A stretch of DNA of 64,000 nucleotides from Asparagopsis taxiformis. Its lineage: Eukaryota; Rhodophyta; Florideophyceae; Bonnemaisoniales; Bonnemaisoniaceae. The stretch spans positions 62,001-126,000 of the forward strand of contig JALQPE010000356.1 of assembly GCA_030407315.1 (NCBI GenBank), given 5' to 3'. Every line of letters starts with the position of its first letter. Within the stretch, counting starts at the first letter, position 1. Under the pieces are notes generated by a model. That model did no database searches, was not told the DNA's origin, and saw nothing but the letters and a program-made list of their open reading frames with translations. The position numbers and the translations under genes were made by a program. Positions 28,559 through 53,763 of the stretch are shown here, one piece after another.

Positions 28559-29947
28559 CTAATTTTCTATCACATACTCATGATCAGCCAAACCATCCGA
28601 CCAGGCCCCGATGAATGTATCCTCAGCCGGTGTTTCCGGCCTCCGATAGCGAACCCAATGTGCCAAGAAAATTGGTCGTCTGGCTGCGGCCACTTGCTCA
28701 TGATTTGCATCTCCCCCAACATGCATGCCATCTGCTATTCCCCGATTCGCTTTTCCCCAGATAAATTTCCACAGAATGAACAACATAATGACCAAGAAGG
28801 AGACACCGCCAACTACGCCTCCCACAATGGCGCCCGTTTTCGATGAGCCTACTTGTTCCATCATAGGAAGTTGACTCCCACTGGCAAACACCGGCTCCAC
28901 TTCGCTCGATCGCGCAATTGCTATTCCTTGTTCTTGAATCCAGTCTAAGAGTGTACTTACCCGAATGAACAAACTCGGAGACCCCGCTTCCCCGCAGAGG
29001 CCCGTTCCACGACTAAGACTAATCAATATACCAAATTGCACGATGTTGTTGTCGCTGTCGTATTGGAATACCGGCCCTCCAGTATCTTGAAAACTGTAAA
29101 GTCTCGTGTCAGTCCATGGTTGCTGTGAAAAGGAAACGAAGAATTAGATGGATTGAAACATACCATGGCCCGCACCACCGGTTGCTATACCCGGCGCAGA
29201 AATGTCTGTCAGGGTTGAATTGTTCTTCGAATGCGGCATTGCACGCTTCTTGTGGAGCTGTAGGTAAATCTACTTGTCGGAGACGGAATATATTTTCGTT
29301 TTGGTCTGTTCCCAGCGAGATTGTGATACCGTACCCGGCAAACCTCAAAAAGCTTCCCTGTCGTGGCTCATTATTACTTGGGTTGAGTTTCATGAACAAC
29401 ATTGGCTGAGGTACTGGCCGTTCTAGCTGCACCAACACGATGCTTGGTTGTTCAGGCGAAGATAAGGGGTGAACGATTGTGCGCTCTATTGAAATCTGGG
29501 AGCCGCCCTCGGAGACCCAGCCAAATACAGAGAAAACGCGACGCGAACCAACAACGACAGTCGCATTGGAAGGATGCAGCAAACATAACGAAGACGTGAG
29601 AAGCCATGTGGGTGCGATAACACTGGCCGCACACAGTTGTACAGCCTCGTTGGTTTGAAGGTTGAATACAATGATAACAGCAAGATGCTGCATCAATGAC
29701 GGTGATGCAACTAATTGGCCGTTTAGTATACGACCAACTGGTTGGGTTGCTGGGCGCTTGCGCTGCCATTTTGTTGTGGCTGAGGAAATATTGCAGATAG
29801 GTCGAGTTGGAAGATGTCTGGGGCTGGCAGCGGTGTTCCGAGCAACGGCGGGTCTGGTGACAGGACAGCTTGGCAGGAATCTGACGGGAGGACGGATTCA
29901 TCCTGCGCAGATACAAGCACCAGTAATAGAATGAAGACGGGAAGCAT
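28559..29947 (-). pseudogene. S1-family membrane-anchored protease homologue A, catalytically dead and frameshifted
   Basis: Exon 1 is 29947-29164, the intron 29163-29094 (GTATGT...ACAG, 70 bp) and exon 2 29093-28559. It has signal peptide MLPVFILLLVLVSA and the family's prodomain Cys (SCQAVLSPDPPLL). The frame must change near 29725-29740 to reach the mature start RILNGQ, and the summed exons are 1319 nt, which is not a multiple of three. All triad positions differ: His57 is Leu (SSLC), Asp102 is Ser (PSIVLVQL), and Ser195 is Thr (QDTGGP, replacing GDSGGP). One membrane helix (TGAIVGGVVGGVSFLVIMLF...) and a cytoplasmic tail follow. A single base-call error could explain the frame, but not the triple catalytic loss. 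Confidence 0.75.
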
Positions 29948-30210
29948 TGGTAATGATGGTGTTGGGCGGGTTACGACACAACCGGAATGGCAGAAGACAT
30001 GATGGTTAGGGTTGCGTCCTAAGGCGTTGTTGTAATAGTTTCATAGCGCAATGTGATTGCTCATAAGTTGAGATTGTCATCGGCAACAACGAAGGATTTT
30101 GGCTGGAAACGCTGAATGAACTGTGAACGTAAATAGAGCTGAAGAACGAGTACTCACAATGAAATAATTTGAAATATATTTACGAAAACCAAGTTTGAAA
30201 ATCAATAAAT

Positions 30211-31644
30211 TCAAGACCCAAATTGATCGAAGAGTCCTATTTCCGTTGGGACACGTGGCAGCGGGGGAGGCCGCGGTGGATCTGTCGTGTCCTGCCCCGA
30301 AGGAACGATTACTGTCGATGATGATGACGGTTCGTAGTTGTCTGCAACGTCAATCTGCGAAGATTTTCCTGAAGAGTTGGTAGGATATTCCGGTGGTCCG
30401 CGTGTTGAATTGTTACTAGACCTATTTCTTCGTTTTCTCCAGCGATAAAAATATGCTGCGCCGATCAACAAGGCTGCGACCGATACCACGCCGACAACAC
30501 ACCCTATTATTATACGTATAAGGTTGTTTCCTTCACCCTCCGGCCGTATACTGCCGTCACCAAACACAGTGCGCACTTGGTCCGTCGGTGTGAATGCGAC
30601 CCTATTTTCGCGCATCCAATCGATAAAAGCGTCGGTGCGCGTGTGAAGCGATGGAATTCCGGCCTGGGCGCAACCTTGTTGTTCAGTGGCAAGACCGATT
30701 AGCACTGGGTTGTCGTCTTCGTTGTACTGAAATATCGCTCCGCCCTTATCACCGATGCTGAATAAAGCAGTGGAGACGCATTTGTTAGAACAAGGTTGGT
30801 CGTTGGTGAATGATGTATTGTCAGTCAGTCAGTATACTTACCATACGCCACATTCAAGCTCCTCGTAACCTAGACAGAATTGCAGTTCTGAAGAAACCGT
30901 AGCGGTTAGCGTTTCGCGGCAGCGTTCAATCGGGAAAACGGGTATGTCGACTTGTCGTAACACGTTTCTCGTATCGCTTGGTTCTTCCCCCATCATGCTT
31001 TTCCCATATCCCAACACTCTGGAGAAGCTGCCTTGCGTGGGAATGTCCCTATTGGTGTTCACTAGCATAAACTGATTGCTGGGTGCATTTTCGCTCAGCT
31101 CAACCAACGCAATGTCATTAGCAGAATCGTCGTCATTTGCCTGAAAACTAGGATGGACTACGACTCGTTGCACACCGTTTTCCTTACCATTCACCGCTTG
31201 CACCATACTAGATGATACTTCTACAGCATTTGCGCCAACAGAAACGAAAGTGTCGCTGTCGATTTGGCAACGTGCGGCGGTGACCACCCATCTGGAAGAA
31301 ACAAGAGACCCGTAACAGACGTTGAGATTATCGGTATCAATGGGCGTGCGAACGAAGAGGACGGACAGTTGCACGAGACGCTCGGAGAAGACTCTGTGAC
31401 CGTTGACGATTCGCATTGAGTGCATGTCAGGCGAGCGTGTCTGTGCTACAATGGGCCGGCGTAGGCGGGTATCATGGCTGTTAGGCGCATACTGTCGCGT
31501 GCTCTCCAGGAAGGGACTGTCGGGTTCGAGAACGACGGGGCATTCTTGCTGACGCACGAGCGGGTGCCACAGCGGCCAGTCGTCCGAACGAGGGGTTGCG
31601 TGGACGATGGATAGCAGAAAAGCGACCAATATGGCGGGTCGCAT
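30211..31644 (-). CDS. S1-family membrane-anchored pseudoprotease B
   Basis: Exon 1 is 31644-30842, the intron 30841-30758 (GTAAG...CAG, 84 bp) and exon 2 30757-30211, together 449 residues in one frame. I chose the ATG at 31644 because it opens signal peptide MRPAILVAFLLSIVHA. The order is prodomain motif VRQQECPVVLEPDSP, activation site R78-IVNG, protease domain, membrane helix (about IIIGCVVGVVSVAALLIGAAYF), and a Pro/Ser-rich cytoplasmic tail. Catalytic His57 is R125 (TAARC) and Ser195 is K272 (GDKGGA), while Asp102 remains (NDIALVEL). It should not cleave peptide bonds by the S1 mechanism; a binding or receptor role is more likely. Gene A lies next to it in the same orientation. Confidence 0.85.
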
Positions 31645-32182
31645 GTTGAAGGATATGGACTCGACGTGGTGCGGATTGTGCACGAGGCGAGTTTGACTGC
31701 ACGTGGAAGACAGGAGGTTGGCGGGTATTCTGAAGTCGCGACTGCAAGTGCATTGTTATCCACTCTGGTTTACGGTGAAGAGATGTATCTAGGTTGTTTT
31801 ATGATGTACATACACCTGTTGAATGCGTTTCGGGAGAGGACGACCTGATTGGGCACATGTGTCATGCGTTGAAGCTGCGTGGAAGTCTTGCTCACCCCGG
31901 ATCATTCATGCACGTGTATTTATCAAATTCGTGGTCAAACAACGAGACAGCCATTGATGGTGTGGTGCAAACTGTGAGCTCTATGTGGTTCACCGGACAT
32001 GTGGTTCATTGGTTTCATAGATGCAGCACATTGCGACAAGTTGTTGACGCACCCTGCAACTAAATTTTTTGTTTTCAAACAAGCGCAGCAATCGATGACT
32101 TAGTATCATATCCATCGTATCCCACTAGACCTCTTGATCAAATAATGGCTTTTAAAGTAAATATTTAGAAAGCGACTATATA
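31645..32182. other. No supported gene
   Basis: Upstream region of gene B and target of the Copia 2 insertion. No clear TATA box recognised. Confidence 0.4.
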
Positions 32183-32383: not shown

Positions 32384-35300
32384 ATGACCACTCCAGCGCT
32401 ACCGCCACTCGAAATCGACAACGCACCGTACTGGCATCGCATGCTTCAGGCTATCGCCCTAGACATGGACCTAGACCACTTCCTGGATGCCTCCCACACA
32501 GCCCCAACCGATCCCACAGAATACAAAGACTACAAACGTCAACAGGAGCGCCTCACCATGATCATTCTGGCCAGCCTCCCAAAGACAATCACTTCCGACC
32601 TCACTGCCGATCAGCTGAAGCTGTCGCCGTACCTACTCACACGCCTCATCCTTAACGCCGTCGACGAACACACCGCAATAGACCACTCCATCCTGGAAGC
32701 CAACGCCCGAAACCTTCGACTAACCTCCCTCCACGACGCCCCTGAATATATTGAAAAGCACAAAAACCTACGCCGCACGATGCGCAACGCAAATTACCCC
32801 AACATACAAGATGAGACCACCACCGTCCACTTCATGATCCACTGCATACAGAGCGTCACTGCACTCCACAACGCACACGACACATTCATACTCCAACCCC
32901 CACCAACAATCACTGCATTTTCCACCAGACTTCAACGTGTCATCAACAGCATTCTATCCCGCCAATGCGAAGACCCACCAACTTCCATACGTTACTCAAG
33001 AACAGCAAAAACCCGAACGCCCTACCATCACCACACAAATCGCCCCACGCCACACTGGAAGCGCAATAGAGCCCCTAGGCCTAGAACTTCACACATGTGG
33101 TGCGATTTCCACAACTCGAAAACCCACACGAACAAAGGCTGTCGCGCACAGAACAAATCCGACCACCCATACAAACAAGCGCACGAAACCATAAACCTCT
33201 ACCAAGAGTGTGACGACACAAACACTACAGTCTCTGATGACACGGAACCCAACCGTAAGTCCTTTATATTAGATTCCGGAGCACACCCCACGCACCTCAA
33301 CCATCCTCACCCTTCTACAACACCGCTAACGTCACCTCAATACACCCACACTGCTGCGAACCACCGACACTCCGTCACCCACTCGGGTCCAATACAGATC
33401 AAGACACCTTCCATGCCGCTCAACATTAAGCACGCGATCGTCACTCCAGACCTCCGACACAATCTTGTCTCCGTACATTCCCTGTCGAACCACCACGGTC
33501 CGGTCACCTTCACCCCGTCCAAAGCATTCATCACCCCGCGCGGCCGCCGCAAGCCCCGGAAGATAGCTACTTTCAAACGCGGCCTATATGTTGTTGACAA
33601 TAAACCGCCAGGATTCCCTCCCCTACCAAAAGTGTGCAACAACACCACGCCAACCTCTGCTCGCTCGCGGAGCACTCCTCCCGTCACGGCGTCAACACGC
33701 TCCCGCTCTCAACAGCGAAACACATCCACCACACACCGCAGCAGACAACAGCCTCCTCCCGACGCACCATCTCAAAACACAAGATCCAAAAAGCAAACGC
33801 CCAAGTGGGATAGACCATGGCGCACTTCCACTCCTAGCCCCAAGTCGAAGGAAACATCTACACAGGTGGCCACAACACCTCACAAACCAAACAACAAGCC
33901 GCGCCACAGACCAGCCCCACGCCTCCAAACCCAAGTGACTCCGAAACACCACAACACTACACCATCACATCGGAGCACCACCCACGACACGCCTGCAAAA
34001 TCCACAACGGGTGTAAACAAAACCACAAGCACGAAAGAAAATGCTCCTCTCTTAACTTTCTACAAACTCACCCAGCATCCCAAATCACCACCCCCCAACC
34101 TGGAACCAACACTCCCATACGACAAACCACGGATCCGCGACCCCCTCTACACCCCAAACCCTGAAGACAAACCAAATACTGCACACGACCTCCACCTCCA
34201 ACTTGGTCACCCAAATCCACAAACCATGCGCCGCATGTGCCGCCACAAACACATACCTGCACTCGCACCATATCAGCATCTCGTCATTCCTGACATGACA
34301 TGCAGTGCATGCGCGATCGCCAAAATCAAATCTGCTCCACACAAGCCAACGACACACAGTCACCATATCGGGAATCACATATCCTCTGACGTCTGTGGAC
34401 CAATGTCCACCACGTCATCCCAAGGCAGCCGCTACTTTGTCACATTCATTGACACCAAGACACGTTTCATAACCGTCTACTTCCTACACAATCGTGCCGC
34501 CATACCGGACGTAACAATTCGACACATGGAATACATCCACACCGCGCACGGAAAATACCCCCGCTTCTTCCGATCAGACAACGCGCGCGAATACACATCA
34601 TCCACACTACAGAAAGCGCTGTCAGCCAGAGGAATTACACATATTACAACAGCGCCTTACACGCCGCAACAGAACAGTCTTGCTGAACGGATCAACTTAA
34701 CATTAATGGACACAGTCCGCGCCAACCTCACCCACAGCAACCTCTCCGACAAGAACTGGCAGTTCGCACTGATGGACGCCGTCTTCAAGCGCAACATCAC
34801 GCTACACAGTACGACCAACAAAATACCATACACTGAATGGTATGGGATGAAACCCAACATAAAACGGCTATTCGCATTAGGCCAAATCGGCCACATACCA
34901 ATCCCCAACCCAACCACAAAACTGGAAGACCGCGGCACTCTCGTCCGATACCTGGCCGCAACAGACCAAGACAACATACTAGTTGCTAAAACCAAAACAA
35001 ACCAAACCCTCAAAATCCCCGCGCTCGACTTCCACCCATACACGACAATGACTGACCCCACCGCCACAACACCATTCGCATTCCACACAACGAAAGCCAA
35101 CCCAAAACGCCGCAATGTCCCGCAACACATTACACCGCACACACCGGCCCCCTCGAACCACCGTCTCGCTCGCCAATATCCAGACGCCCATCTGTGGTCA
35201 ATAGCACACGACAGCGAACTTGCCAAAATTGACCAAATGCGAGCAATTGACTGGATCCCACGCTCATTAACCCCGACCATGTCCAAACCCATCCCACTTA

Positions 35301-36919
35301 CAATGACATATCGATACAAGCGTGATGCCAACGGTCACATAGAAGAAAGAAAGGCATGGTGTGCTGTACGAGGCGACCTAATGAAACCAAACATGCACTT
35401 TGACCCCAACAACACTGCCACATTCGCCGCCGACAAAACCTCGATCCGACTATTACTAGCACATGCCGCCGCCCACCGCCTACACACAGAGCACATAGAT
35501 ATCTCATCCGCCTTCCTCCACGAGGAATTTAACCACTCCATACCTGTATACGTCAAACAACACCCCTCCTTCGATGGCACATTTCGTCACGATGCCCACG
35601 TTGGGCACCTACGCGGAAACTTATACGGAACAAGACAAGCCGGCCGCATCTTCACCGATGGTATACGCCAATTCCTCCAATCCTTGGGGTACACACAACT
35701 ACGATCTGACCCATGCCTCTTCCACAAGACCAACAAAACAGGCCAAACCATAATAGCCACTACTATCGACGACTTTCTTGTAAGTGCAACCAGTCCTCAG
35801 CTCATCTCAGAATTCTTCAGACTCCTCACAACCAAATACAAGGCAAAACGCCTCGGCAAACCATCCAAGTACCTGAACTGGAAAATCACACACCACCACA
35901 ATGGGACACACATTTCCCAACCCCACATCATTGCATCTATCATATCCAAGACCAAAATGGACGACGCTAAGCCAATCACACACCTATACTCTGATGGAAT
36001 TGACCTCTCTCCACCCAAAGATTCGGACGAAGAAGACACCACCACAGCCATAGTGTTTCGTGAGGCCTTAGGCGAGCTCCGATACTTGACGGACTCGACT
36101 CGCCCAGACATTCAATTCTACACGAATGCACTTGCCCGCGCCAACCACAGACCCACGACGCTTCACTGGAAACTACTCAAACGCTTAGTGCGCTTCCTCA
36201 AACACACCCCCAACACTGGAATCACCATGCCCAACAGTCCCACATCTGAAACTCTTATCACATACACAGACGCAGACTTCGCGAATGACACCACCACTAG
36301 AAAATCAATATCTGGATCGGTACACACCTTGTATGGCTCTCCCATCCATTGGACATCGCAACGACAATCACTAGTAGCCACAAGCACATGTGAAGCCGAA
36401 ACCATCGCTGCATCAGAGGCCGTACGCCAAGCCAATTGGCTCGGCGACCTCCTTAAAGAACTCCACATAATTAACCCTCAACAAGCGATCCTCACATATA
36501 TAGACTCCCAGTCGGCTCTAACTATCGCAAAGAACAGCGCACCAACCAAGAGACGAAAATTTATAGACATCCGACATCACCACCTCATGGACAATGTCCA
36601 GTCTGGTCGCATCAATTTACAATACCTTCCGTCCAACGCCATGCTTGCGGACATTTTTACCAAACCACTAACCAAACAACCCTTCCAATCTCTAACAACC
36701 GCTCTGCGAATAATGCCACCCACTCCAACTACCACACCATCGCTCCCCGCCCCTCGGCGACAGGGGGAGTGTCAGGGCGCTAACTCACTCTATATGTCGC
36801 CCAGCGACGACTCGCTCACGGAACATCAGGGCGCTAACTCATCGCACGCAATAACTGCACCTTACACCAGAGACCATTACACTGACAACACGTCAGATCC
36901 TTCAAACAGTAGTATTTAA
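32384..36919 (+). CDS. Copia 2 gag-pol polyprotein (1511 aa, complete)
   Basis: One uninterrupted frame starting 42 bp after the LTR. Gag carries a zinc-binding motif C240-x2-H243-x4-H248-x4-C253. The aspartic protease active site is D297-S-G (FILDSGAH). Integrase has an HHCC region (LQLGHPNPQTM...CSACAIAK) and a D669, D732, E768 core with exact D,D-35-E spacing. The RT catalytic pair is D1129-D1130 (TIDDFLVSA). RNase H includes ITYTDADF near 1296 and DIRHHH...LADIFTKPL. The last 50 codons run inside the 3' LTR, where a repeated QGANS reflects the LTR's internal duplication. All catalytic residues look intact, so the element is probably still able to move. Confidence 0.95.
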   Translation: MTTPALPPLEIDNAPYWHRMLQAIALDMDLDHFLDASHTAPTDPTEYKDYKRQQERLTMIILASLPKTITSDLTADQLKLSPYLLTRLILNAVDEHTAIDHSILEANARNLRLTSLHDAPEYIEKHKNLRRTMRNANYPNIQDETTTVHFMIHCIQSVTALHNAHDTFILQPPPTITAFSTRLQRVINSILSRQCEDPPTSIRYSRTAKTRTPYHHHTNRPTPHWKRNRAPRPRTSHMWCDFHNSKTHTNKGCRAQNKSDHPYKQAHETINLYQECDDTNTTVSDDTEPNRKSFILDSGAHPTHLNHPHPSTTPLTSPQYTHTAANHRHSVTHSGPIQIKTPSMPLNIKHAIVTPDLRHNLVSVHSLSNHHGPVTFTPSKAFITPRGRRKPRKIATFKRGLYVVDNKPPGFPPLPKVCNNTTPTSARSRSTPPVTASTRSRSQQRNTSTTHRSRQQPPPDAPSQNTRSKKQTPKWDRPWRTSTPSPKSKETSTQVATTPHKPNNKPRHRPAPRLQTQVTPKHHNTTPSHRSTTHDTPAKSTTGVNKTTSTKENAPLLTFYKLTQHPKSPPPNLEPTLPYDKPRIRDPLYTPNPEDKPNTAHDLHLQLGHPNPQTMRRMCRHKHIPALAPYQHLVIPDMTCSACAIAKIKSAPHKPTTHSHHIGNHISSDVCGPMSTTSSQGSRYFVTFIDTKTRFITVYFLHNRAAIPDVTIRHMEYIHTAHGKYPRFFRSDNAREYTSSTLQKALSARGITHITTAPYTPQQNSLAERINLTLMDTVRANLTHSNLSDKNWQFALMDAVFKRNITLHSTTNKIPYTEWYGMKPNIKRLFALGQIGHIPIPNPTTKLEDRGTLVRYLAATDQDNILVAKTKTNQTLKIPALDFHPYTTMTDPTATTPFAFHTTKANPKRRNVPQHITPHTPAPSNHRLARQYPDAHLWSIAHDSELAKIDQMRAIDWIPRSLTPTMSKPIPLTMTYRYKRDANGHIEERKAWCAVRGDLMKPNMHFDPNNTATFAADKTSIRLLLAHAAAHRLHTEHIDISSAFLHEEFNHSIPVYVKQHPSFDGTFRHDAHVGHLRGNLYGTRQAGRIFTDGIRQFLQSLGYTQLRSDPCLFHKTNKTGQTIIATTIDDFLVSATSPQLISEFFRLLTTKYKAKRLGKPSKYLNWKITHHHNGTHISQPHIIASIISKTKMDDAKPITHLYSDGIDLSPPKDSDEEDTTTAIVFREALGELRYLTDSTRPDIQFYTNALARANHRPTTLHWKLLKRLVRFLKHTPNTGITMPNSPTSETLITYTDADFANDTTTRKSISGSVHTLYGSPIHWTSQRQSLVATSTCEAETIAASEAVRQANWLGDLLKELHIINPQQAILTYIDSQSALTIAKNSAPTKRRKFIDIRHHHLMDNVQSGRINLQYLPSNAMLADIFTKPLTKQPFQSLTTALRIMPPTPTTTPSLPAPRRQGECQGANSLYMSPSDDSLTEHQGANSSHAITAPYTRDHYTDNTSDPSNSSI
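36762..36769 (+). other. Polypurine tract of Copia 2 (AGGGGGAG)
   Basis: Purine run directly before the 3' LTR, where plus-strand DNA synthesis is primed. It lies within the coding frame. Confidence 0.75.
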
Positions 36920-39273: not shown

Positions 39274-41084
39274 CTAGTTTGTATTCCCGCTAGGCGCCCC
39301 GCCACCATCTCCTCCCGGCGATACCGCGGCTGGTTCTATTGGAACGACCGACCCATGCGGCACCGAAGATCCACCAGCATCGGGCGCATATTCCGTCTGT
39401 GTCACTCCTCGTGAAGTTTCAGCCACAGATACTGTCGCATCATATCCCATCTCTGCTTGTCCGGTAGGTGGCGTGTTTGCGATCGCATTATTTTCCCCCA
39501 GCACAGCGGCGTTGACCACCGGCATGCCTCCCGACTGTAACGGCCCCGGCGCATAGACGGGGTGACTTGGCGCTGCGGGTTGCGTCGCACCCGCCATGCC
39601 CACAGATGGACCTGTTGGAGCGGTAGGTGTGTACGGGATGTATGATTGTGGCGTTGACGGTGGTAGAGGATATTGTTGCAATGCAGCGCTGGGATACGCT
39701 GTTGTTCCAGCGGCACCATATGTATTCCCTGCGGCATTCGGCATTGTCGGTGGAGGATAGTTTCCTCCAGGAGCGTTTCCAGAGGTATCTGTGTACGCAG
39801 TTGGAGCTGCTGGTGGGGGCGGCACTAATGTAGCACTATTGTTAGCGGGATCCATAGAAGGCTCAGAATTGTCTCGTGCCCTTCGACGTTTCCTAATGAA
39901 GAGTACACCGGCGATGACTGCAACGACAACAATTGCAGCGATAACACCTCCCGCAATCGCACCAGCATTGACGCCAGAGCCGCCGAAATCATCCGACATT
40001 ACGACACGAATATTCGGTCCCGGTGTAAACTCAGCTCCAACACCCCTCATCCATTCTTCGAATGATTCCGGTCGCACGAATACTGTCGGTATCCCTGGCT
40101 GACCACAGTTTTGTGCGAAGGAAACTATACCGATTTGGACGGGATTGTCATTTTCGTCGTACTGAAACAGCGGCCCGCCGCTGTCTCCCTGACTGTTGTG
40201 CGCGAATGAAATGTACAGTTAGCGATGGATGTCGGTGCGCATCAAAGGTGTCTGGATTGAAAAGGGCGTGAAACCTACCAAGAGCCGCATTCGAGAGACG
40301 CATACCCGGCGCATACTTGTCTATCGAAGAGTACTTCATTTGGATATACTTCTTCACATCGATCGTCTGGAAAGACTGGTATATCAACCTGTCGCAAGAA
40401 GCCTTCAGTGTCCTCGGGCTCTTCTACTTGAAAAATGGTTTTGCCAAATCCAGAAACTCTAGCCATGCTGGCTTGGACAGGTTGATCACTTAATAAATTG
40501 ATGCGCATAAATGAAGAACTGTCAGCGGAGCGATCGAGTCTTAACAAAGCAATGTCATGAGCCCGTCGGAAGGGGTCGTCAAAGTTATACATTGGATGGT
40601 TATATGCATCGCTGACACGGATTTGTCGCCCATCTACGAAAAATACTCCGAATACGTTTGCAAAAACACGTTTGGTGTCCACAAAAACCGATGTTACAGA
40701 TGAGTCAGCTTCACAATGAGCTGCTGTCAGCACCCACCTTTGTGCAATGAGACTGCCAGTGCAGAAGCTTGGACCGAGAATGTCGAGATTTACGACAGCA
40801 ACAACCATTTCGCGCAGTCTTGGGGAGTTGAGAAATTCACCATTTACAATGCGAGGTGCATTGGTCGGTGTGTCGGGACGCTGTGTAGATTTGGAGAATA
40901 GGAGACGATGAGAGCGTTTCGCAGTGAATATCGGCGGCGTTGAGTGACTTTGGCTGGACGCCGGTGGATCTGGTTGCAGTACTACGGGGCATGTTTGCTG
41001 ACGAAGAAGAAAGGGCAGATGTGGGGTAGCGCAAACTAGGTTGGACAAGATGACTATGATGAAGACGATTGCTGTTGACATCAT
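39274..41084 (-). CDS. S1-family membrane-anchored serine protease C, full catalytic triad
   Basis: Exon 1 is 41084-40279, the intron 40278-40193 (GTAGGT...ACAG, 86 bp) and exon 2 40192-39274, together 574 residues. The signal peptide is followed by prodomain motif LLRQQTCPVVLQPDPP and activation site R78-IVNG. The triad is complete: H123 (TAAHC), D177 (HDIALL) and S273 (QGDSGGP). The position equivalent to chymotrypsin 189 is Gly, so trypsin-like Arg/Lys preference is not expected. A membrane helix (about 346-368) is followed by RKRRRAR and an unusually long Pro/Tyr/Gly-rich cytoplasmic tail of about 200 residues. The inferred topology puts the protease outside, with a single-pass anchor and a disordered tail inside. 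It is the only copy in the cluster with all three residues. Confidence 0.9.
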
Positions 41085-41474: not shown

Positions 41475-42699
41475 TCACGTGTTGCCATTCCTTTGTCGTC
41501 GTCGAATCCAACAAATCAAGCCGATCAACAACACTACTACTACAACAGCACCAATCGCACTGCCCACAATTACCCCAATAGATGGTTTTCCATCATCGCT
41601 CGAAAATACGCTACGCACATTGTCCGCTGCCGTAAACACAGCGCCATTCTCACGCATCCACGGGATGAATGCATCAGTGCGCGTGTGAAGTGAAGGTTTT
41701 CCTTCTTCACCACAACCATAAAGTTTAGAAAACAAGCCAACCTGTACAGGGTTGTCATCCTCGTCGTATTGAAATACCGGCCCGCCACCGTCACCAAAAC
41801 TGCAATACCAACGGAATTGAATTCGTTAGAACGATTCATTGCTTTTGAAACCTCTTCGCGCGATTTGCTTCAACTTCACTTACCACACCCCACATTCTCT
41901 AAGGTCATAGCCCACACAGATCTGCCTTTCTGCGAATATTTCCGTGGTGAATTCATCTTGGCATTCATTAAAAGGAAACACAGGCATATCGACTTGTCGC
42001 AAATTGTTTCTCGTGTCGAGTGGTTCGGGTCCGTTCACAGAAGACCCATATCCCATCACCCTAGTGAAGCTCGCTCTTTCTGGAATATTCGCCCTGGTGT
42101 TCAACCTCATGAATTGCCTGCTCGAAGCTGGTCTCTCAAGCTCCACCAAAGCTATATCATTCGCTTCTGCAAATTCACTGCGATTGTTATAGTCAGGATG
42201 AGGCATTACTAGTCGCACTTCAATAACTTCGCCCCCGTCAACTATGAGTTTCGGTGGCGTCCCCGGTCTCACTTCTACGTTACGCGGCCCCACAATCGCT
42301 TTGGCTGTCGTCAGAATATCGCACCCCGCTGCAGAAAGCACCCATGTTGCAGAAATAAGAGAGCCGGAGCAAAAAATATAATCGTCGTCACCTTGTTGTG
42401 TGAAAAGAAAGACAGCCATCTCCCTTAGACGATCAGACAGAACATTGTTTCCGTTCACATTCGCGGCGAAAGTCCATCTGCAGAATTGACATGCGTTGAA
42501 ATCGGCAAGTTGGTGATGTTGGTCCTGCCACCGAGTGGATACCGTTGTGAATTTCGAGCAAAGGGACTATCGGTTTGAGAACAACAGGACATGTCTCCTG
42601 GCGAAGGAGCGGCTGTTGTAGTACATGCCCGGATACTCGAGGGGTGCTTAGTGCGATGGCTAAAGCAAGAATGGTTTGAATGGGAGGTGTGATTGTCAT
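41475..42699 (-). pseudogene. S1-family membrane-anchored protease homologue D, dead and frameshifted
   Basis: Exon 1 is 42699-41884, the intron 41883-41800 (84 bp) and exon 2 41799-41475. Signal peptide (MTITPPIQTILALAIALS) and prodomain motif LLRQETCPVVLKP are in one frame, NSADGLSPR in a second, and the mature domain (VNGNNVLSDRL...) in a third. Two single-base losses would explain this, one at the activation site itself. Catalytic His is Gly (SAAGC), Asp is kept (NDIALVEL), and Ser is Gly (GDGGGP). A membrane helix (VIVGSAIGAVVVVVLLIGLICW) and a short tail RRRQRNGNT complete exon 2. The long clean protease frame suggests that the breaks are recent. Confidence 0.75.
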
Positions 42700-43488
42700 T
42701 GATAGTCGTTGACTGGATGAAGATAGACAATGAACCACCTCCCCTACCTGACATTTCAAGCAGTGAAGGGTTACACATTTTGTCTGTAATCTTGCGCCAA
42801 CGATGCCCAGTTGTACCATCTCTGATACGCGCTGTACAATATCATACAATACAAGTAAATATCTGAGATTCTGAACGTGTACCTTGCAAGAGTCGTGCTG
42901 CCCGATCAAAATTGTAATGTCTTGAGCCCTTTTTTTTTTCTGTTGCACTCCACTCTCTGTACAGCACTGGTAACCATATTGACACGATGAGGGGCGGTTG
43001 TCACCAAACGTTCAACGTGACAACGTTGCTACCTTTTTCCCCCGCTAGATTCCTCGGCAAACACCTCAATCTCACGGATATCTGCACATTATTCATGCAA
43101 TGATTTTGGCTCACCCGAGTTCGGCTCGCTGCGTTATTCTGGGTTGCGGTGACGTTACTGTAGCGCTCCGATTTTATGGGCCACAAATGCACTGTGTGAC
43201 AACATACACGAAACCTGTTCGTGTTCTTCTGAAACTGTCTTCTCCACCAATTGCATGGTATTTATCGACAGGTTTGCTTGTTGTATGGTATGGGGTCAGT
43301 GTGAAGAAGGCTGTGTGTTCGCGTCCCATTTGGGACTCATCTATCATTTCTTTTCGTGTGTTGCCAAATTAAATTAGGAGCCACTGAAACAGTCCTTGAC
43401 AAGAAAAATTCCAACACACAACTGAACCTGGCGAAAAAGGTTCATTTATTCCAATCCTTTGTGTCCAGGATAGCTGAACTTCTCACTA
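42700..43488. other. No supported gene
   Basis: Intergenic DNA between homologues D and E, with a pyrimidine-rich T run near 42930-42940. Short frames only. Confidence 0.4.
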
Positions 43489-44880
43489 CTAACATCCCCC
43501 ATACTTGATCTTCTGCATGAGTTCTCTACCAGAGACGGCGCGATTTGACACTATTATTTCACTAGTTGGAACCGTAGAGTCTATGGCATTCTTCTCCCTG
43601 CGTTCTTCTCGTTCTTGGTCGCTACAAAATATTCCTCCCCTTCGAAACCAGATTATTCCCCCGATGACTATAAAATGACACCCAGTGCACCTGCGATAGA
43701 GCCAACAATACTGCAATTGGGGGATCAGTACGTTCTCGTTCGTTATCATCACACCGCATATTTCCATTATCGCTCTCCGTTTCAAACACGGAATTCACGG
43801 GGTTCCCTTGCGTGAAATCAGCACCGTTCTGGCTCACCCATTCAATGAATGCGCTCACCGCGTGTTAATTGAGGGAAAACCCGGCCGTGCACATCCATTC
43901 CCCCGCGCAACGATACCAATTTGCACAGGATTATCATTTTCGTCGTACTGAAACACTGGTGCGCCGGCGTCACCATTACTGGAATAGAAATAGACATTCA
44001 ATCATTAGTATGCCTGGAAGTTGAAAAATTGGCTTGCATCTTCGCTTTCGTTGTTCACTTACCATATTCCGCATTCTCTTCTTTCGTAGCCTACACAGAT
44101 GTGCCTTTCCTGGATTATGTCTCCGCCATAAACTAAATTGCACTGATCAATAGGAAAAACGGGCATATCGATTTGCAGCAAAAAGTAAGACGAGGTTTGC
44201 TCATCTTCTGCAGTGATTCCATATCCGAAGATTCTTGTGATGCTGCCACTTTCGGGAATGGATGGATTGGTATTTAGAGTCATAAATTGGGGTTTCACAA
44301 CGGAAAATTCTAGTTCAAACAGCCCAATATCATTTGCCCTATCTGATACATCCGATGCATTGTATTCTGGATGAAGTATCCCATTTATTACTGGAACAGT
44401 CTGGGCCTCATCACTCACTGGACCATCAACGAAAATGTCTACTCGTTTTGCTCCAATGACAGCTAGAGTTCCTTCTTCATATCCACACTGGGCAACAGTG
44501 AGTACCCATCTTGAAGATATAAGTGAGCCAGAGCAGACAGAGTAGTTACCTCCTTCTTTCGGGATGAAAATGAACACGGCCATTGCCCTCAGACGGTCAG
44601 ACAAAACATCTTTCCCATTCACAACTCGTGGCGTAAGTCCATCTGCAGATGTGGCATGCATAGAACCCTGTAAGTAGGTACCGTTCGACGTGGTGTGGTG
44701 TGCTAGCCGTTGTGAGGTTGACTGGAGAGGGCAATCAGGTCTGAGGATAGCAGGACATGTATCCTGGCGTAGGAGCGGATGTAGAAACTGCGGGTTTCTC
44801 TTTGCTGAAGGGTGACTGTTCACCCGAGGCGCGGCAAGCGCGACGGTGAGTAGGAAGGAAGCCAGTATAGTGAGTATCAT
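43489..44880 (-). pseudogene. S1-family protease homologue E, dead and with broken exon 2
   Basis: Exon 1 is 44880-44063 and fully open: signal peptide MILTILASFLLTVALA, prodomain motif LLRQDTCPAILRPDCPL, and activation site R-VVNG. The intron is 44062-43979 (84 bp). Exon 2 begins at 43978 with CNGDAGAP. His is Gln (VAQC), Asp is kept (NDIGLFEL) and Ser is Ala (GDAGAP). Compared with its close relative F, exon 2 lost one base near 43861, which brings a stop after NTR, and has further indels through the membrane helix; the remaining frame ends at 43489. A shortened product without the anchor is conceivable but more likely this is a pseudogene. Confidence 0.75.
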
Positions 44881-45356: not shown

Positions 45357-48300
45357 TTAGCTTGTGCGAGCGAGTTGCAGTAGCTCTTTTGCTCTTCGTG
45401 CCAGTACTTTCTTGTTAGTTTTTTCTAAGAATTTTTCCACCATTTCAGGAACATCACAATGTAGTCTAACCAACGGTTCCCACGTATGGTCCATCGGATC
45501 CGGTAAGCCTTCCCATCGCACTTGTATGAAAATAGAATTGTCCATTGCTTTCATGTCGACCAGCTCGTCGATCTCTTCATATTTTGCTTCCGTATGTGTC
45601 GCATGGGCGAGGAGTTCCGGTGCAATCACAGTCTCGTCCTGTGCACCCTTGTAAAATCTCAATCTGCACGCGTGCACCTTTTCCTTTTTTCTGTCAATCA
45701 ACCCTTCAATTTCGTAAACAACCTCGTTGACGATCCGAATGATCCGCTTAGGCCCCATCCATTTGAACATTAGTTTATGTCCTTTGTTTTGAGCGCGGCG
45801 CACCATGACGAAGTCTCCCTCCATAAATGATGGTACTACCACGTTCGTCTTCCTATTGTGAGCCTGTATTTGCTTTGACCTGTTGGCGGAGACTCTCTCT
45901 GCTACTGTGTGGTGCATACAGTCGATACACTTCTGCAATCCATCGATTGTGTCGCGCTGAATGTGTCTGATTTCCTCGATGTGTAGCTCCTTACCGCAAA
46001 TTTCGATGTTCCGCATTGCAAATCTGTTAGGCCTCATTCCTGTCATAACTTGCAATGGGGTGCGTGTTTGATGTTTTTCATCTCTCCCTAACCGTGTTAA
46101 TGGTGATTCGTTGAGGATGATCTGGATTGTGGGTATCACTTGAGGCCAATCTTGTGGTGCGAGCTTCAGTTCCGAGAGCATTGCACGAGTGGCTCTAAGA
46201 ACCTCACGGCAGCATCTCTCGACCGTTCCGTTCGCCCAGGGGCTATATGCGGTTACAAAATGGTGTTTGATAGAGTATTCGTCAGACAACTTCCGCATGA
46301 CCTGGTTCTTAAAATGCGCCGCTTGGTCGGAAACCCATGTTTGCATTGGAGTGAATGTGAATATCCATCGCGCTATATTCTGCGCTGTGATTTCAGCAGT
46401 TGCTGCAATTGCAGGACAAAGCCAAACATAAGATGATAGATTATCTTTGATGATTAGTACGTATTTCATGCCATTTGTTCCTCTTCCCATGTATAAAAAT
46501 CGAAGTGGACTATTTCGTTGGGTTTCGTGGCCATCAGTGTACTGGAAAGCGGCCTTGGAACTTTTTCGCCACTGTCGGCTGTAAGACAGTGTATGCATTG
46601 TTTCACGAACTCCTTACAGTCTTGAGTTTGTGTTTGCCAGAAATAACGTTCTGAAGCAATGTCATAAGTGGCTCTTGCCCCTCTGTGACCTGCCTTCCCG
46701 CAGTGGGAAATCACTAATATTTTCAATTGAATTTCATGATCTGATGGCGGCACCCATATACGTTGTCGTACTTTCCATAGCCCGTCTTCGTGTAACACGC
46801 AACCACATGGCATACTGTGGATCCATTTTTCTTGGGATATTTTGATCATTGAGTCTGAAGGCCAGCTGTATTCTTCACTGAGCGGCGAGATCGCGAGATC
46901 TTTGCATCGCACCACGTTGCATATGCGCTTCCTAGCTCTTGCTTTGTTGCGATATCCACTGTACCATCGCGTCATAATGTCCGCCATCACATTGCGCTCA
47001 CCGCTGATGTGTTCAATAGTGTATGTAAACATAGACAAGTAAAGTGCCCACCTTTGTACTTTGGATACGATATGCCTTCCCAGAGATGGCTCCAAAGACA
47101 AGGGATTAAAAACGAAAAGGAGGTTTCGGTGATCCGTAAAGACGTGTATAGGTTTCTCCGTTAGTAGCAGATAGTCCATTTTCCGAAACACCTGTACTAT
47201 CGCGAAGGCTTCTTTCTCGAATGTCGACCATCTTACTTCTGAGTTCTTAAACGCAGAGCTTAAAAACGCAAGTGGATAGTGCTTCTGATGCTCGAACGGC
47301 TTCTGAAGTTCTTTGGCTGGGCACTGTGTTAACACAGCAGCCCAGTGACTTTCCGAGGCATCCGAGAAAATGCAACGTTCCTGCGAGTTGTCTGGATGAG
47401 AGAGTCTAACTGCGTTGCGCAAGCTTTCTTGAAATAGGGAAAATGTTTGCGTGTGGACAGTCCCCCAAGATAGCTTGTGCAGCGGAATAGTTTTGATCGA
47501 CTTCGTGCTCCGTTTTCCTGCTATCGCATACGCCATTTCGAGGACGTCCCGTAGTGGCTGGACACGATTTGCAGAGTCCGGGATAGCCGGGGACATCCAT
47601 TGAAGGCAATGCACGTATTGTGACAGTTCGCCTGCTGTGATAGGTTGTTCTATTTCCTTGAGCCCACTTAACCGTCTGGGATCGAATTCTGTACCCTCTG
47701 GTGTTATGATTCGTCCACACCATTTCAAACTTTTCGTAAAAGATTGGACTTAAGAGCAGAAATTTTCAGCCCGTATTGTTGGCAGACTGAAAAAAAGGTT
47801 TCTAAAATTTTCAAAAGACCCTCTTCATCTTTGTGATGTAGAGCAAAATCGTCCAGCCAGGCCTTCATATTTTCCTTAATTTTTGAAAATAAGGGTTCGA
47901 CGCGGCATTGAAAATTTGGGCCGGAGTTGCGGGCACCTTGTAACGTTCTAGTCGGTGACCAGGTTGCTTCGGGCGTCATAAAACTGTGTGCGTCCTGCGC
48001 AGATTCATCCGCTGGAAGCTGCCAGTACGCGCTCGGGAAGTCGATGGAGGCATAACATTTGCTCTCGCTCATGTCAGATAGTTCGCTATCGATCTGGGGC
48101 ATTGGCCAAGCCATGGGCTCTGTGAACGCGTTGACTGGTCTTAGGTCGAATGTCATTCGGAACTGCCCCGGTTGCTTTTTCTTAACCAATAATGGGGCAG
48201 CAGCCCACGCAGCGCAGTTATTCTTCCTGATGAACCCGTATTTTTCGGCGCTGGTGGTGAACGATTTGATGAAGGCGCGCTGTTCTGGGGAATAGTTCCG

Positions 48301-49962
48301 CGCTTTTGTTCGGATTGGTACCGTGCCATCCTTTATTTTGACCTTCATACTGCCGACTTTCGCCGGTGGGTCATGTCCGATTCTGCAGCGGAATATGTCT
48401 CTGTACTCTTTCATGAGTTTCCGAAGGGTATGGGCGCCTTTTTCTGTCATCCCTTCGTTAATTGCGCTCTGCACCAGTTTTTCAAATGCCATCTGTATTT
48501 CTTCTTCTGTGTCATCGCCGAATTCTAACAGGGGTAACTCATCTTCATCCCCGGATTCGCTTTGCAGGGCTCCGTGGAACGTGTCACTATTGGCCATGAT
48601 GTGTGCCACTGATCCTGTTGGGTATTCCTCCGTGTCACAAATTTTGTTGACATCTATATCCGTCCCGTGCCTACGGCATGCAGCGGCCAAAATTTCCTTT
48701 GCATCCATTCCAAGGGCGTGCAGGAGAGGCCTTCCAATTAATTCATTTGGAATAGGCCTGGTCGATACGTAGAATGTGGTGTTGCGCAGCGTAAGGGAAG
48801 TACCGTGGCGAATCTGTAATTCGCATGTTACAGTCATTTTCCGGTCACACTCGACGTATATGCGCTTGCCATTGGTGTCCTTCTCTACTGCAAGGTCGAA
48901 CTTATGAGGCCGGTCTATTTTTGTCATGCGCACGTTTGATCCATTTGAGATAAGTCGTGCACACAGTCCTGGTGACATAAGATTTATATCCGATCCGATG
49001 TCAGTGACCACCGTGGCAGTTTGTGTACCTGCAAATATGGCACTGAAACGTGTACTTTCGAGCTCAGTTCGATCTCCGTTTGTAACAGCAGCGGCTTTGC
49101 CCTTTGATTCAAGCTTCCTCGCTTTCATTTTAGCGTAGAGGCGATTTTTTTCTTCCGGACTCGTGTTGTTACAGTAACGCAAGTAGTGTCTTTCGGTACA
49201 TGATGGGTTTAGGCAAGCTGGTGGCGGGTTGCTTCTTTTCTGTTCTGTAGCCGCAATGCTTGTTGCGGCGGAGGTGTTGGAACTGTGCTTCCTATTCTGA
49301 TTTCCTGAGGAAGTCTTTCCGATTTTCCGCATACTCGCCGCGCCCTTTTCTATGTGTTCCGCTTGCTTAGCGGCGTTGTTTAGGAATGCCTTCCAATTCG
49401 ACTGTATTGATGGTTTGTAATCGAAGTCGCTGAGCACTTGGGCTCGCAGTGCAGGTGGATGCAGTCTGGATGCGATTAGACGGGTAGCCATTTTCGTATT
49501 TGAATCCCTAAATGACTCATACCCTGCCTCACTCATCAGTTTGTCGAATTCGATTGCCAATTGGAACACTCTAGCTTTCGTGCTAGGTATTGCCATGTTC
49601 ATACGCAATTTCGAAAGTGCAGTTTCGATAACTGCAGCGTCGGGCTCTGCATCAGTTCCTGCGTTTGCGATATTCTCTATCGCAGTTTTAATGTGAGCGT
49701 CTGTGAGTTCTGCCGCACTTGCAACGTTTGCATCGTCGAAGATGCCACATGCAAACATTGACTTTAGAAGTCCAGGGTCGACAGAAATTCGGTAGGTAGC
49801 AGCAACAAGTGGCGCGCCATCCTTCGATTTTTCGCTTATCTCGAGTTCATACCTTTCGCGGTCCTTAAGGAATGACACCGCGTCAGCCGGAATGACGGTT
49901 TCTAGAATTGGATAGGATATTGGTTGAAAAATAGCAGGTTCCTTCTGCTTTTTTGGCGGCAT
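45357..49962 (-). pseudogene. gag-pol of the chromodomain Gypsy element, two frame breaks
   Basis: I start at the ATG at 49962 (MPPKKQKEP). Gag includes a CCHC-like knuckle (CLNPSCTERHYLRYC). The protease motif is DIGS in place of the usual D[ST]G. RT carries WLDDFALH. The frame changes near 47730 in an A run, just after KSNLLRK; RNase H (CIFSDASESHWAAVL, HVFTDHRNLLF) and the integrase zinc domain (CGKAGHRG...CIHC) follow. A second change occurs near 46490 in a T run; the integrase core (KDNLSSYVWL, WVSDQAAHF, NGTVERCC) and a C-terminal chromodomain (IQVRWEGLPDPMDHTWEP) follow. Both breaks behave as loss of one base in a homopolymer, so sequencing error or fresh decay are both possible. Confidence 0.85.
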
Positions 49963-50035
49963 GGTGTACCGCACTCGTCCAACTTGAGTGAATGTAGTCC
50001 TCAGAGGTATCCTCGATCGAAGATACAGAAATTTC

Positions 50036-50317
50036 TGTAGACAACTCCAGGGGCAACGCTCTCTTCAAGATGGTTTCATGAACAGTGCTTTTATCACTGA
50101 TACCCCTCTTCCGAGACGCGACTCTACTTCCTACTTTATATATCTATCAGGTAATCGAACGAGTGGTGGTAACTGCCTCAGACTGTCCGCCAATTTGCGG
50201 CTTGTAGGCTGTTGGCAGCTTGTAAGCCCACAGTAGCTTGTACAGCTTACGCTGTATGTGCGAGAATTTTTTGGCTACGCTAGCTACGGCATACAACGAG
50301 TGTGCACCTGCTCTACA
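50036..50317 (-). repeat. 5' LTR of the Gypsy element (282 bp)
   Basis: Identical by eye to 45035-45316. No TGG-type primer-binding site is visible right after it; the adjacent GTATCTTCGATCGAGGATAC can fold back on itself. Confidence 0.9.
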
Positions 50318-50342
50318 CGTTTCGTTTCGTTTCGTTTCGTTT
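50318..50342 (+). repeat. (TTTCG)n microsatellite
   Basis: About five units next to the Gypsy 5' LTR; about three units remain on the far side (45018-45034), marking the pre-insertion locus. Confidence 0.8.
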
Positions 50343-50837
50343 TACAGTAGGTAGTGTTCATTGGGGCTGGGAGAGAAGGTCTCAGTGGAAGGGACTAATG
50401 GCGTTACAAAACATCAGCGAACAAGGGCTCGAAAAAGCATGCATTGGTGCTGAGTAGAGGCGCTCTTATATTTATGGTGAATATGTCACGTAGATTTTGT
50501 ACGGCAGAAGAGTGAAATCTGCAATGTGTGAGGACGCTTTCCATCGCACCGCATGGAGCTATGGGATTTAAGCGTCACGTACTCAAAGTCATATGTTGAC
50601 GAAACTAGTGTTTTCACAGCATGTCTACTGCGACCAAAGCTGAAACTGCCATCCCACGGACGGTGAGCCCCCAAAGTTTTCAGAAATGTGCTGTTGTGAT
50701 ATTTTGTTAGTCACTCTTCCCTTACAGTCGGCCAATGAAATCAATTCATCCCCTCGAAAGCAGTGCCCTATTGACTATAGTTTACAACAAATGCAGAAAA
50801 AATACCTCAAGGGCCAAATTGCCCAAAACAGTCCACT
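50343..50837. other. No supported gene
   Basis: Here the 5' part (signal peptide, prodomain) of homologue G should lie; I could not recognise it. Confidence 0.4.
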
Positions 50838-51861
50838 ATATTGTGGTCGCTATTGCAAATCACAATCCTTTGTCCAATTCCTTCTGCAGTGCCAGTTTAA
50901 TCGCGCCATCCTGGGTGCTGTTTTCGTCGCCACCCAGCGCATCTTCTTCAACGGCGGTGTACAAATCTTCGTCCAAACAGCCATTAATCACCCGCAACAC
51001 TTCTTCGATGACCCGTTGCGTCGCGCACATGACATTGCCTTGCTACAACTTGAACGACCTGCGCTGAGTCCAACCTTTATGCATCTCAATGTCGATAGCG
51101 CCCAACTGAAACAGGCAAGTTTTTCCAGAGTCATGGGATACGGTAGCGTAGTTTTCATGGACGAAGAGCCGTCCACCACAAAGGGTCGATTGCGACAAGT
51201 GCATGTGCCCATCTTTTCAAATGAAAGATGTAAACAGCAGTACAACAATCAAATACTGCCCGACAGACAAGTGTGCGCCGGATACAATCAACGTGAATGT
51301 GGATCATGGTAAGTTGAGTGCAACGCAGCAAAATGAGAGCTGGTAGCGGGACGTACTGACTCGCAATTTGAACATACCAACAGTCAGGGCGATAGCGGCG
51401 GGCCGTTATTCCAATACGACGAGGACAGCAACGCCGTGCAAGTAGGCATAGTGTCCTTTGCGGAAGACTGCAGACAGCCTGGAAAACCGACAGTCTACGT
51501 GCGACCCGATGCGTACATTGAGTGGATTCGCGAAATGGGCGCCGAATTCACATCGGCATCCGACATTCGTGCGGTGTTTTCAGCTGGTAGCGATAGCATC
51601 AGCACAAGCAGTTCCAGTGCGGCGATCATCGGCGGCATAGTGGCGACGATTGCATTCATTGTTTCGATGGCGCTCGTTGTGATTTTCGCAAAACGACACC
51701 GCGCTTCGGATCGTTCGGATGTCACAGCGGATGGTGGTGACGAACGCGTGACGAACGCTGATACGGGGCTCACTCGCGTCGAAAATCAGACCGCCGATGA
51801 CGAGTTTGGGCGTGTCGCGGGTGGAGAGATGGTGAGCGGCGCGCGCAATGAAGAGATGTGA
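50838..51861 (+). pseudogene. S1-family protease homologue G, truncated at the 5' end
   Basis: Similarity to gene C begins with VVAIANHNPLSNSFCSASLIAPSWVL. The segment holding the catalytic His (TAAHC in gene C) is then deleted and the frame changes near 50917. The rest of the domain is open and keeps Asp (AHDIALLQL). The intron is 51309-51383 (GTAAGT...CAG, 75 bp). Exon 2 from 51384 has an intact QGDSGGPLFQYDED, a membrane helix (AAIIGGIVATIAFIVSMALVVIFA) and a tail of about 70 residues to 51861. It is the sister of gene C by exon 2 wording (QPG-PTV-VRP). No signal peptide or prodomain remains, so it is a pseudogene derived from an active-type copy. Confidence 0.8.
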
Positions 51862-52376: not shown

Positions 52377-52383
52377 TATAAGA
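52377..52383 (+). promoter_or_regulatory. TATA-like TATAAGA for gene F
   Basis: Lies 64-70 bp upstream of the ATG at 52447, the start that opens directly on the signal peptide. Confidence 0.45.
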
Positions 52384-52446
52384 CCTCTCAGTGAATATTT
52401 ATTGCGACATAGTCTCCCAACCTCATTTACGCCTTCATCTTCCAGA

Positions 52447-53763
52447 ATGGTACCCGCTAAACTGGCTTTGTTCCTACTCATTGTCTTTCTTGTTGCGCCT
52501 AGGGTAAACAGTCATCCTTTGACACCGAGAAACTCGCAGTTACTACATCCGCTTCTGCGCCAGGATATTTGTCCCGCTATCCTCAGACCTGATTGCCCCC
52601 TCCAGCCAACCTCACAAAGGCAACTACACCACACCGCGACGAAGGATACTTACTTCCCGGGTTCAATGCATGCCAACTCTGTGGAGGGACTTACGCCACG
52701 AGTTGTGAACGGCAAAGAAGTTCGGTCTGATCGTTTGAGGGCATTGGCCGTGTTGGTTATCATACCAAATGGTGCATCAGGATTTGTTCTCTGCTCTGGC
52801 TCTCTAATTTCGTCAACATGGGTGCTAACTGCTGCTCAATGTGGATATGAAGAAGGAACTGTTGCTGTCATTGGATCAAGAGAAGTAACCTTTACCGGAG
52901 ATAACTTAGCGACTGATGGCGAAATTTATAACGTGAAAAACGGGATACTCCATCCAGGATACAATGAATCGGATGCATCAGGAAGGGCAAATGACATTTC
53001 GCTGTTTCAGCTCGAAAGTCCTGTTGGGAGCAACCCCCCATTCATGAAATTAAATATGAATCCATCCGTTCCAGAAAGAGGCAGTGTCACAAGGATCTTC
53101 GGATATGGAATCACTGAAGAGGATGAAGAAACCTCGATTTACAATTTGCGGCAAATCGATATGCCCGTTTTTCCTATTGATCAGTGCGATTCAGTCTACG
53201 GAGAACTAATAATTCCAGAAAGGCACATTTGTGTAGGCTATGAAAACAGAGAATGTGGAATATGGTAAGTGAACAACATGGTAGTTGCACGTTAATTCTT
53301 ACTTGAGCGTGCATACTAACGAACAAGTGTTCCTTTCTATTCCAGTAATGGTGACGCCGGCGCGCCAGTGTTTCAATACGATGGAGATGACAATCCTGTG
53401 CTAATAGGAATCGCGGCGAGAGGGGAAGGTTGTGCACGACCGGGCCTTCCTTCATTTAATACGCGAGTGAGCGCATTCGTTGATTGGGTGCGCCAGAACG
53501 GAGCCGATTTCACCTTAGCGAACGGCGTGAATTCCATGTTTCAAACGAATAAGAGGTGTGAAGATGATGATGAGGACGGGAACGGGAACGGTACTGATCC
53601 CCCAATCCCAGATACTGTAGGTTCTATCGCTGGGGCACTAGTGCTTATTGTTATCGTCCTCGGTAGTATTGCTATCATCGTCTGTGGAAAATGTTGTACG
53701 CGACAGAGAAGAGAAGAACGCACAGAGGAGAATGTCGTCGACTCTACAGTTTCACTATCGTGA
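52447..53763 (+). CDS. S1-family membrane-anchored pseudoprotease F (intact reading frame)
   Basis: Exon 1 is 52447-53264, the intron 53265-53345 (GTAAGT...CCAG, 81 bp) and exon 2 53346-53763, together 411 residues in frame. It has signal peptide MVPAKLALFLLIVFLVA, prodomain motif LLRQDICPAILRPDCPL, and activation site R85-VVNG. Catalytic His is Q131 (TAAQC), Asp is kept (NDISLFQL) and Ser is A277 (NGDAGAP). The membrane helix (GSIAGALVLIVIVLGSIAIIVC) is followed by a basic then acidic tail. It is the close inverted paralogue of E. An open gene with consensus splice sites and two lost catalytic residues argues for a maintained non-enzymatic role such as ligand binding at the cell surface. Confidence 0.88.

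Follow-up and report, generated by a model that had tools for sequence, protein, structure and literature searches.

Candidate membrane-anchored S1 pseudoproteases retained as a clade in the red alga Asparagopsis taxiformis

Five genes of the red alga Asparagopsis taxiformis, here called B, D, E, F and P, form a single clade of S1 serine protease paralogs in which the catalytic triad is replaced, and this clade has very probably been kept by selection as pseudoproteases. B, D, E and F belong to a cluster of seven S1 genes, A to G, between 28.6 and 53.8 kb of the window, the 64-kb stretch under study (C356:62001-126000) within a 141.5-Mb assembly; all gene coordinates given without a contig name are positions within this window. 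S1 proteases without activity are familiar from animals, and the algal proteins are of a known kind, the S1 pseudoproteases or serine protease homologs (SPHs), in a new setting. Judged by sequence, they would qualify as SPHs, with an S1 domain, a replaced triad and a maintained gene. A selected red algal clade would show that loss of His57 and Ser195 with retention of Asp102 and the activation switch occurs also outside animals, and would offer a clean system for learning which parts of the S1 fold persist once catalysis is lost. It also points towards protease signalling outside the cell, on the surface of red algae.

The gene cluster

By their sequences, A to G are members of peptidase family S1A, with the chymotrypsin fold. 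Pfam Trypsin (PF00089) matched the exon-1 open reading frames (ORFs) of A, B, C, E and F, the five scanned, with E values of 9e-13 to 3e-21, and a profile from eight spliced proteins matches PDB trypsins at 1.7e-36. Each gene has one intron of 70-86 nucleotides, in phase 2, which splits the Cys191 codon after its second base, with His57 and Asp102 encoded by exon 1 and GDSGGP by exon 2. Triad residues (57/102/195) were read from the spliced alignment. The first-pass annotation had described seven S1 copies at 28559..53763 and named their residues at the His, Asp and Ser positions; after splicing, both statements proved correct. The seven genes, and P, are as follows.

28559..29947, minus strand: gene A, S1 pseudoprotease, L/S/T, motif FQDTGGP; exon 1 ends at 29164, followed by an intron of 70 nucleotides and exon 2 to 28559
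30211..31644, minus strand: gene B, complete pseudoprotease, R/D/K, motif IGDKGGA; intron 30758-30841
39274..41084, minus strand: gene C, intact active-type protease, H/D/S, motif QGDSGGP, Gly189; intron 40193-40278
41475..42700, minus strand: gene D, pseudoprotease, G/D/G, motif FGDGGGP; prodomain frame-broken here, C399 copy open
43600..44880, minus strand: gene E, pseudoprotease, Q/D/A, motif NGDAGAP; exon 2 broken here, end approximate
50686..51861, plus strand: gene G, broken duplicate of an active protease; retains QGDSGGP, with Asp102 and Ser195
52447..53763, plus strand: gene F, complete pseudoprotease, Q/D/A, motif NGDAGAP; intron 53265-53345; one helix, then 26 residues
C676/C2537: gene P, inactive, Phe57 and Gly195

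Contig C399 is the second haplotype of C356, with 99.6-99.8% identity to window 26.7-43.0 kb. In the window the reading frame is intact in B and F, which had been called complete open genes with dead triads and are so, and it is broken in exon 1 of A and D and in exon 2 of E. B consists of a signal-like N-terminus, a CPVVL prodomain, the S1 domain, one hydrophobic helix and a further 81 residues, and is open on both haplotypes, which differ by 1 single-nucleotide polymorphism (SNP). On C399, exon 1 of A is open, and both D and the E-like gene at the corresponding place (triad Q/D/G) are open throughout. Assembly errors may account for the breaks in A and D, which are single-base differences in homopolymer length between haplotypes (context judged by eye).

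G is a duplicate, truncated and with an internal deletion, of a protease gene found intact on C1624. Homology to the intact gene starts at window 50840, 243 bases into that gene, and the equivalent of the sequence upstream of C1624:144412 is missing. A separate internal deletion takes out the His57 (TAAHC) stretch, which rules out a plain 5' truncation and makes the earlier description of this His as deleted exact.

Triad replacements and relatives in other assemblies

By its residues, an active triad appears to be present in C and in the C1624 copy of G, and to be lacking in A, B, D, E, F and P. The replaced triads are identical on both haplotypes for A, B and D, and the Gly57 of D recurs in a relative from another assembly, P0118; sequencing error as the source of the dead triads in these three genes is therefore ruled out. 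Residue 195 of E differs between haplotypes, being Ala or Gly and never Ser, and F is without a C399 copy for this comparison.

P0118 was obtained in a protein search with the inactive exon-1 sequences that covered 5.8 billion proteins and scored 6387 candidates. It lies on a 2,097-base contig (tag lgn), is open over 273 amino acids and matches D at 253 of 272 residues, so that the error scenario, in which relatives with an intact triad would occupy the D locus, was not borne out. An environmental sequence, P0001 (tag ena, 900-base contig), is 93% identical to active C. Over the exon-1 domain, D and P0118 differ at 11 of 178 positions and C and P0001 at 11 of 176 plus one gap, which suggests that D is evolving no faster than active C, provided that the algae behind P0118 and P0001 are comparably distant. 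No comparably close relative of B, E or F was among the best 120 of 197 matches. A Gracilariopsis chorda protein named 'Serine protease 30' (P0119) resembles, by eye, gene T1 of the present genome, with a C-terminal hydrophobic segment and GDSGGP; unlike the clade it has an active-type serine motif, and it is 33% identical to the D-type query over 61% and lay outside the tree set.

A single clade of inactive genes

A maximum-likelihood protein tree was built from 37 of 44 sequences, with G_C356, G_C399, G_C2930, D_C356, A_C356, P_C2537 and O_C587 left out as broken or duplicate. In this tree B, D, E, F and P group as a single clade, with 99.3 in the approximate likelihood-ratio test (aLRT) and 98 in the ultrafast bootstrap (UFBoot); A is on a long branch and its position is not settled by the tree. 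In approximately unbiased (AU) tests, run with 5000 replicates where the program asks for 10000 and with constraints that kept A outside the active group, moving D (p 0.032), P (p 0.022) or E+F (p 0.011) to the active genes was rejected, whereas moving B was not (p 0.096). Sequence scores agree with the grouping: with P0118 as a D-type query, the ranking is D, P, F, E and B (565 to 208 bits), followed by active L at 176 bits, and no active gene scores within the range of the clade.

In the order B, D, P, E and F, residue 57 is Arg, Gly, Phe, Gln and Gln, and residue 195 is Lys, Gly, Gly, Ala/Gly and Ala. These different replacements had first been taken to mean several losses of activity. Because the five genes form one clade, a single loss with later drift at 57 and 195 appears from the sequences to be simpler than five losses. 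Several independent losses within B, D, E and F are disfavoured by the tree and the AU tests, with a placement of B among the active genes still allowed at the 5% level, and an independent loss in B is possible.

Retained and altered residues

The inactive genes keep the elements that surround the activation cleavage. A, B, D (C399), E and F all have Arg15, Ile/Val16, Asn18, Gly19 and Asp194, and P has Arg15-Ile16 and Asp194; the window copy of D deviates at 15 and 16 solely through its frame break. Asp102 is kept in all inactive genes except A. Cys58/Cys191 and the CP[VA][VI]L prodomain are also kept in the clade, as is a hydrophobic helix C-terminal to the protease domain.

The cleft appears remodelled relative to that of the active paralogs. 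Residue 215 is Glu, Lys or Arg in 7/7 inactive rows and Phe or Leu in 19/19 active rows. At residue 189 the inactive rows have Gly and the active rows Asp (11/19, among them L, N, the S group and T1-T3), Ser (5/19) or Gly (3/19), C and intact G having Gly189. Residue 190 in the inactive clade is Val, Ile or Thr, and 214 or 216 is changed in part.

In five inactive genes hydropathy reveals one strong hydrophobic segment C-terminal to the S1 domain, with Kyte-Doolittle values of 2.8-3.2, followed by 15 (in D) to 81 residues. Such a segment fits a type I topology; cleavage of the N-terminal segment, which would tell it from the signal anchor of type II transmembrane serine proteases, was judged by eye. 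Active C likewise has a C-terminal helix, by eye, and a long Pro-rich tail.

Selection after loss of catalysis

The ratio of nonsynonymous to synonymous substitution rates (dN/dS, omega) was estimated with a custom GY94-type codon code on subsets of genes, with P included only downstream of its stop. A one-ratio codon model gave 0.34 for the inactive clade, and a ratio of 1 was rejected (twice the log-likelihood difference, 2dlnL, 147.5); an IQ-TREE codon fit was also worse with the ratio set to 1. The E/F subclade, which is wholly post-loss because all its members share Gln57, gave 0.41 in a one-ratio fit, again with 1 rejected (2dlnL 36.5). At the tips, the ratio is 0.18 for B (2dlnL 37.6 against 1) and 0.21 for P (2dlnL 11.5). 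A branch model assigned 0.18 to active and 0.35 to inactive genes, with the inactive class fixed at 1 rejected and the active-plus-stem and inactive classes differing at 2dlnL 32.5, in a set of four fits of which two (three-class and fixed-at-1) ended at the iteration limit. The earlier proposal that membrane-anchored pseudoproteases were retained as a family thus gains from a clade ratio of 0.34-0.35, from the rejection of neutrality and from the conserved relative of D. A ratio near 1, which had been offered as the sign of decay, does not describe the clade, the E/F subclade or the B tip; the D tip is not distinguishable from 1 and the F pair is near 1.2.

Several observations weigh against retention by selection. 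Constraint is weaker in the inactive clade than in the active genes, for which comparison groups gave 0.23 and 0.25 (membrane-anchored) and 0.14 (secreted). The window copies of A, D and E are broken, A has a shortened tail on C399, and P has an in-frame TGA on both contigs. F is present on C356 and on C2930, where a stretch is 97% identical to the G/F segment of the window. Next to G, on C399 (51300-57000) and on C1624 (145000-147000), F gave no match, nor was one among the listed matches to exon 1 of gene C or to P0118. The D tip, at 0.41, is not significantly under 1 (2dlnL 2.0), and the E+F tips stand at 0.63 (2dlnL 6.9). The two F copies give about 1.2 at a dS of 0.017, a value that carries little weight because alleles of active gene J give 1.19. 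A late, separate loss in B would place part of its constraint before the loss, and Arg15 and Asp194 are possibly kept in part as ancestral residues.

The broken copies, to which G is to be added, the missing F and the high or uncertain ratios of D, E+F and the F pair would be expected if a birth-and-death protease array had left the inactive copies to decay as pseudogenes, the open ones being merely young. Decay is judged unlikely. It conflicts with the rejection of 1 for both the clade and its E/F subclade, with the low tip ratio and two open haplotypes of B, and with an open Gly57 relative of D as conserved as active C. Undamaged splice donors, acceptors and reading frames are moreover seen in four genes, B, D (C399), the E-like gene of C399 and F, and the breaks in A and D may stem from assembly errors.

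Proposed role

Sequence features suggest that the products of B, D, E, F and P are S1 pseudoproteases with a type I membrane anchor and act as cleavage-switched, non-catalytic binding or cofactor proteins, a description that is considered probable as a whole. The switched binding or cofactor role taken by itself, argued from analogy, is put forward more tentatively, as a plausible function. A single-chain form at the cell surface would be cut after Arg15 by a trypsin-like paralog with Asp189. The new N-terminus, Ile16, would pair with Asp194 and the inactive domain would thereby take its mature shape. With a remodelled cleft (charged 215, Gly189), the mature domain could then bind a partner, with a role as cofactor, scaffold or receptor in place of an enzymatic one.

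In the HGF and MSP beta chains, the S1 domain is inactive and binding depends on cleavage and on the Ile16-Asp194 switch. Unlike HGF and MSP, the algal proteins are themselves membrane-anchored, and the Pfam scan of the five exon-1 ORFs gave Trypsin domains and no kringles.

A precedent that has been tested is found in insects. According to PMC9365933 and PMC11172050, the clip-A SPHs of arthropods (among them CLIPA14, Manduca SPH1/2 and PPAF-II) are, like the clade, S1A proteins that have lost His and/or Ser and carry GDGG[SAG]P-type replacements. Gln57 and Gly195 are among the commonest changes there and Asp102 is mostly kept, as in the algal clade; active and inactive paralogs occur side by side, as here, and cleavage of an SPH by an active protease is known in arthropods. 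CLIPA14 becomes a cofactor once CLIPB9 has cleaved it, the motifs GDGGSP and GDGGAP occur in Manduca SPH1 and SPH2, and cleaved insect homologs with either motif serve as cofactors (PMC9365933); among 125 Tenebrio homologs, the top replacements are Gln for His (55, printed H195Q) and Gly for Ser195 (26), and Asp102 is changed in 13 (PMC11172050). The algal clade differs from arthropod SPHs in having a C-terminal membrane helix rather than being secreted, in its origin within an algal CPxxL family and in that no clip domain was found: exon 1 of A, B, E and F gave Trypsin only in Pfam, with D and P outside the scan, and exon 1 of C gave Trypsin plus a sub-threshold Trypsin_2. Inactive protease paralogs turned regulators or binding proteins are also described for iRhoms and MamO (PMC3149277, PMC4794232); unlike the clade, iRhoms belong to the rhomboid family rather than S1, and MamO is bacterial. 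A literature search on red algae and S1 pseudoproteases gave, judged by titles, no title on the subject among the matches listed.

A wider proposal, which is rather doubtful, is that a surface system evolved independently in red algae, in which active S1 proteases would cut pseudoproteases at Arg15 to yield a ligand-binding or signalling form, with sets that vary between haplotypes as at recognition or defence loci. If true, this surface system would be the algal counterpart of insect SPH cascades or HGF-type switches.

Decoys would account for some of the same features: inactive domains might bind the substrates of active paralogs, or protease inhibitors made by pathogens or grazers, and so shield the active enzymes. 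The prodomain and scaffold of the inactive genes are the same as those of active paralogs, and the locus has a haplotype turnover like that of defence loci, with E and the C399 gene in its place only 76% identical over 229 aligned domain codons between flanks at 99.6% (D side) and 98.4% (G side). Canonical inhibitors grip S1 residues 189-195 and 214-216. Because such contact residues are altered in the inactive clade (195 and also 215 in every clade row, 190 to Val, Ile or Thr, and 214 or 216 partly), faithful mimicry of an active cleft is unlikely, and the decoy account as a whole is considered improbable.

Residual or alternative catalysis, for example through Thr195 of A or Lys195 of B, has a precedent in Tenebrio SerPH122, a Ser-to-Thr homolog described as weakly active in PMC11172050. 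It is very improbable here: A is without His57, Asp102 and also Gly193, residue 57 of B is Arg, and residue 195 is Gly in D and the C399 E-like gene and Ala in E and F. Non-catalytic, cleavage-switched binding is preferred to both of these alternatives.

The S1 family elsewhere in the genome

Thirteen phycobilisome matches, 11 of which lie on contig C469, and introns in genes of nuclear type mark the genome as that of a red alga. It contains 147 scored PF00089 matches, a lower bound with exons and haplotigs counted separately; exon 1 of gene C has 113 matches. Serine-motif sites no more than 900 bp from an S1 match number 61 for GDSGGP, 10 for GDGGGP and 3 for GDAG[GA]P; these are counts of sites, haplotigs included, from 66 of 86 GDSGGP-type matches (20 with non-Ser codons omitted) set against 85 of 147 S1 places. 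Eighteen active-type genes were catalogued from those retrieved (C, intact G, I-N, Q, R, S1-S5 and T1-T3). C, once proposed as the single active partner of the pseudoproteases, is therefore one of many, and its candidacy as their activator is weakened because Gly189 makes it no obvious trypsin-like activator.

Two further genes depart from the active type outside the inactive clade.

C1624:4798-5723, with further copies on C150, C257, C2074 and C1623: gene H, inactive, His57 and Asp102 kept (C1624 copy), Gly195
C587:13275 and C2654:89916: gene O, His57/Asp102/Ser195 kept; Arg15, Ile16 and Asp194 lost

A 17-base motif of H was found on five contigs. O, from its sequence, is possibly a locked zymogen, the reverse of the pattern in the inactive clade, and H and O look like separate losses.

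Other copies are unusual in structure. T3 (C787, about 106770-109278) encodes 836 amino acids in one frame; its two S1 domains stand in tandem ahead of a C-terminal helix, and the GDSGGP motif is absent from the first and present in the second. One allele of gene K (C1624:22461-23285) has exon 2 broken by unrelated sequence just past the GDS codons, and the C2930 allele is intact. Seven S1-like copies with near-equal scores, on C967, C1718, C1719, C1727, C1728, C2296 and C2777, have one in-frame TAG each, as if a pseudogene had spread along with a repeat.

Neighbouring features

Two retroelements, identified by eye, interrupt the cluster. A Ty1/copia-like element with a 1,511-amino-acid open frame (32384-36919) lies between B and C on both haplotypes, with 5 SNPs, and a Gypsy-type element (45035-50325) lies between E and G on C356 and is absent from C399, where the E-like gene adjoins G. 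Elsewhere in the window, a 1,724-amino-acid open frame (135-5309) has a weak MULE transposase match under the Pfam cut-off. Five ORFs encode a small Cys/Arg-rich secreted protein whose linker is a Pro-Thr-Pro-Met repeat (9943-10602, 12147-12629, 15505-15987, 17610-18098 and 24191-24700); the last of these, the one copy scanned, is without a Pfam match.

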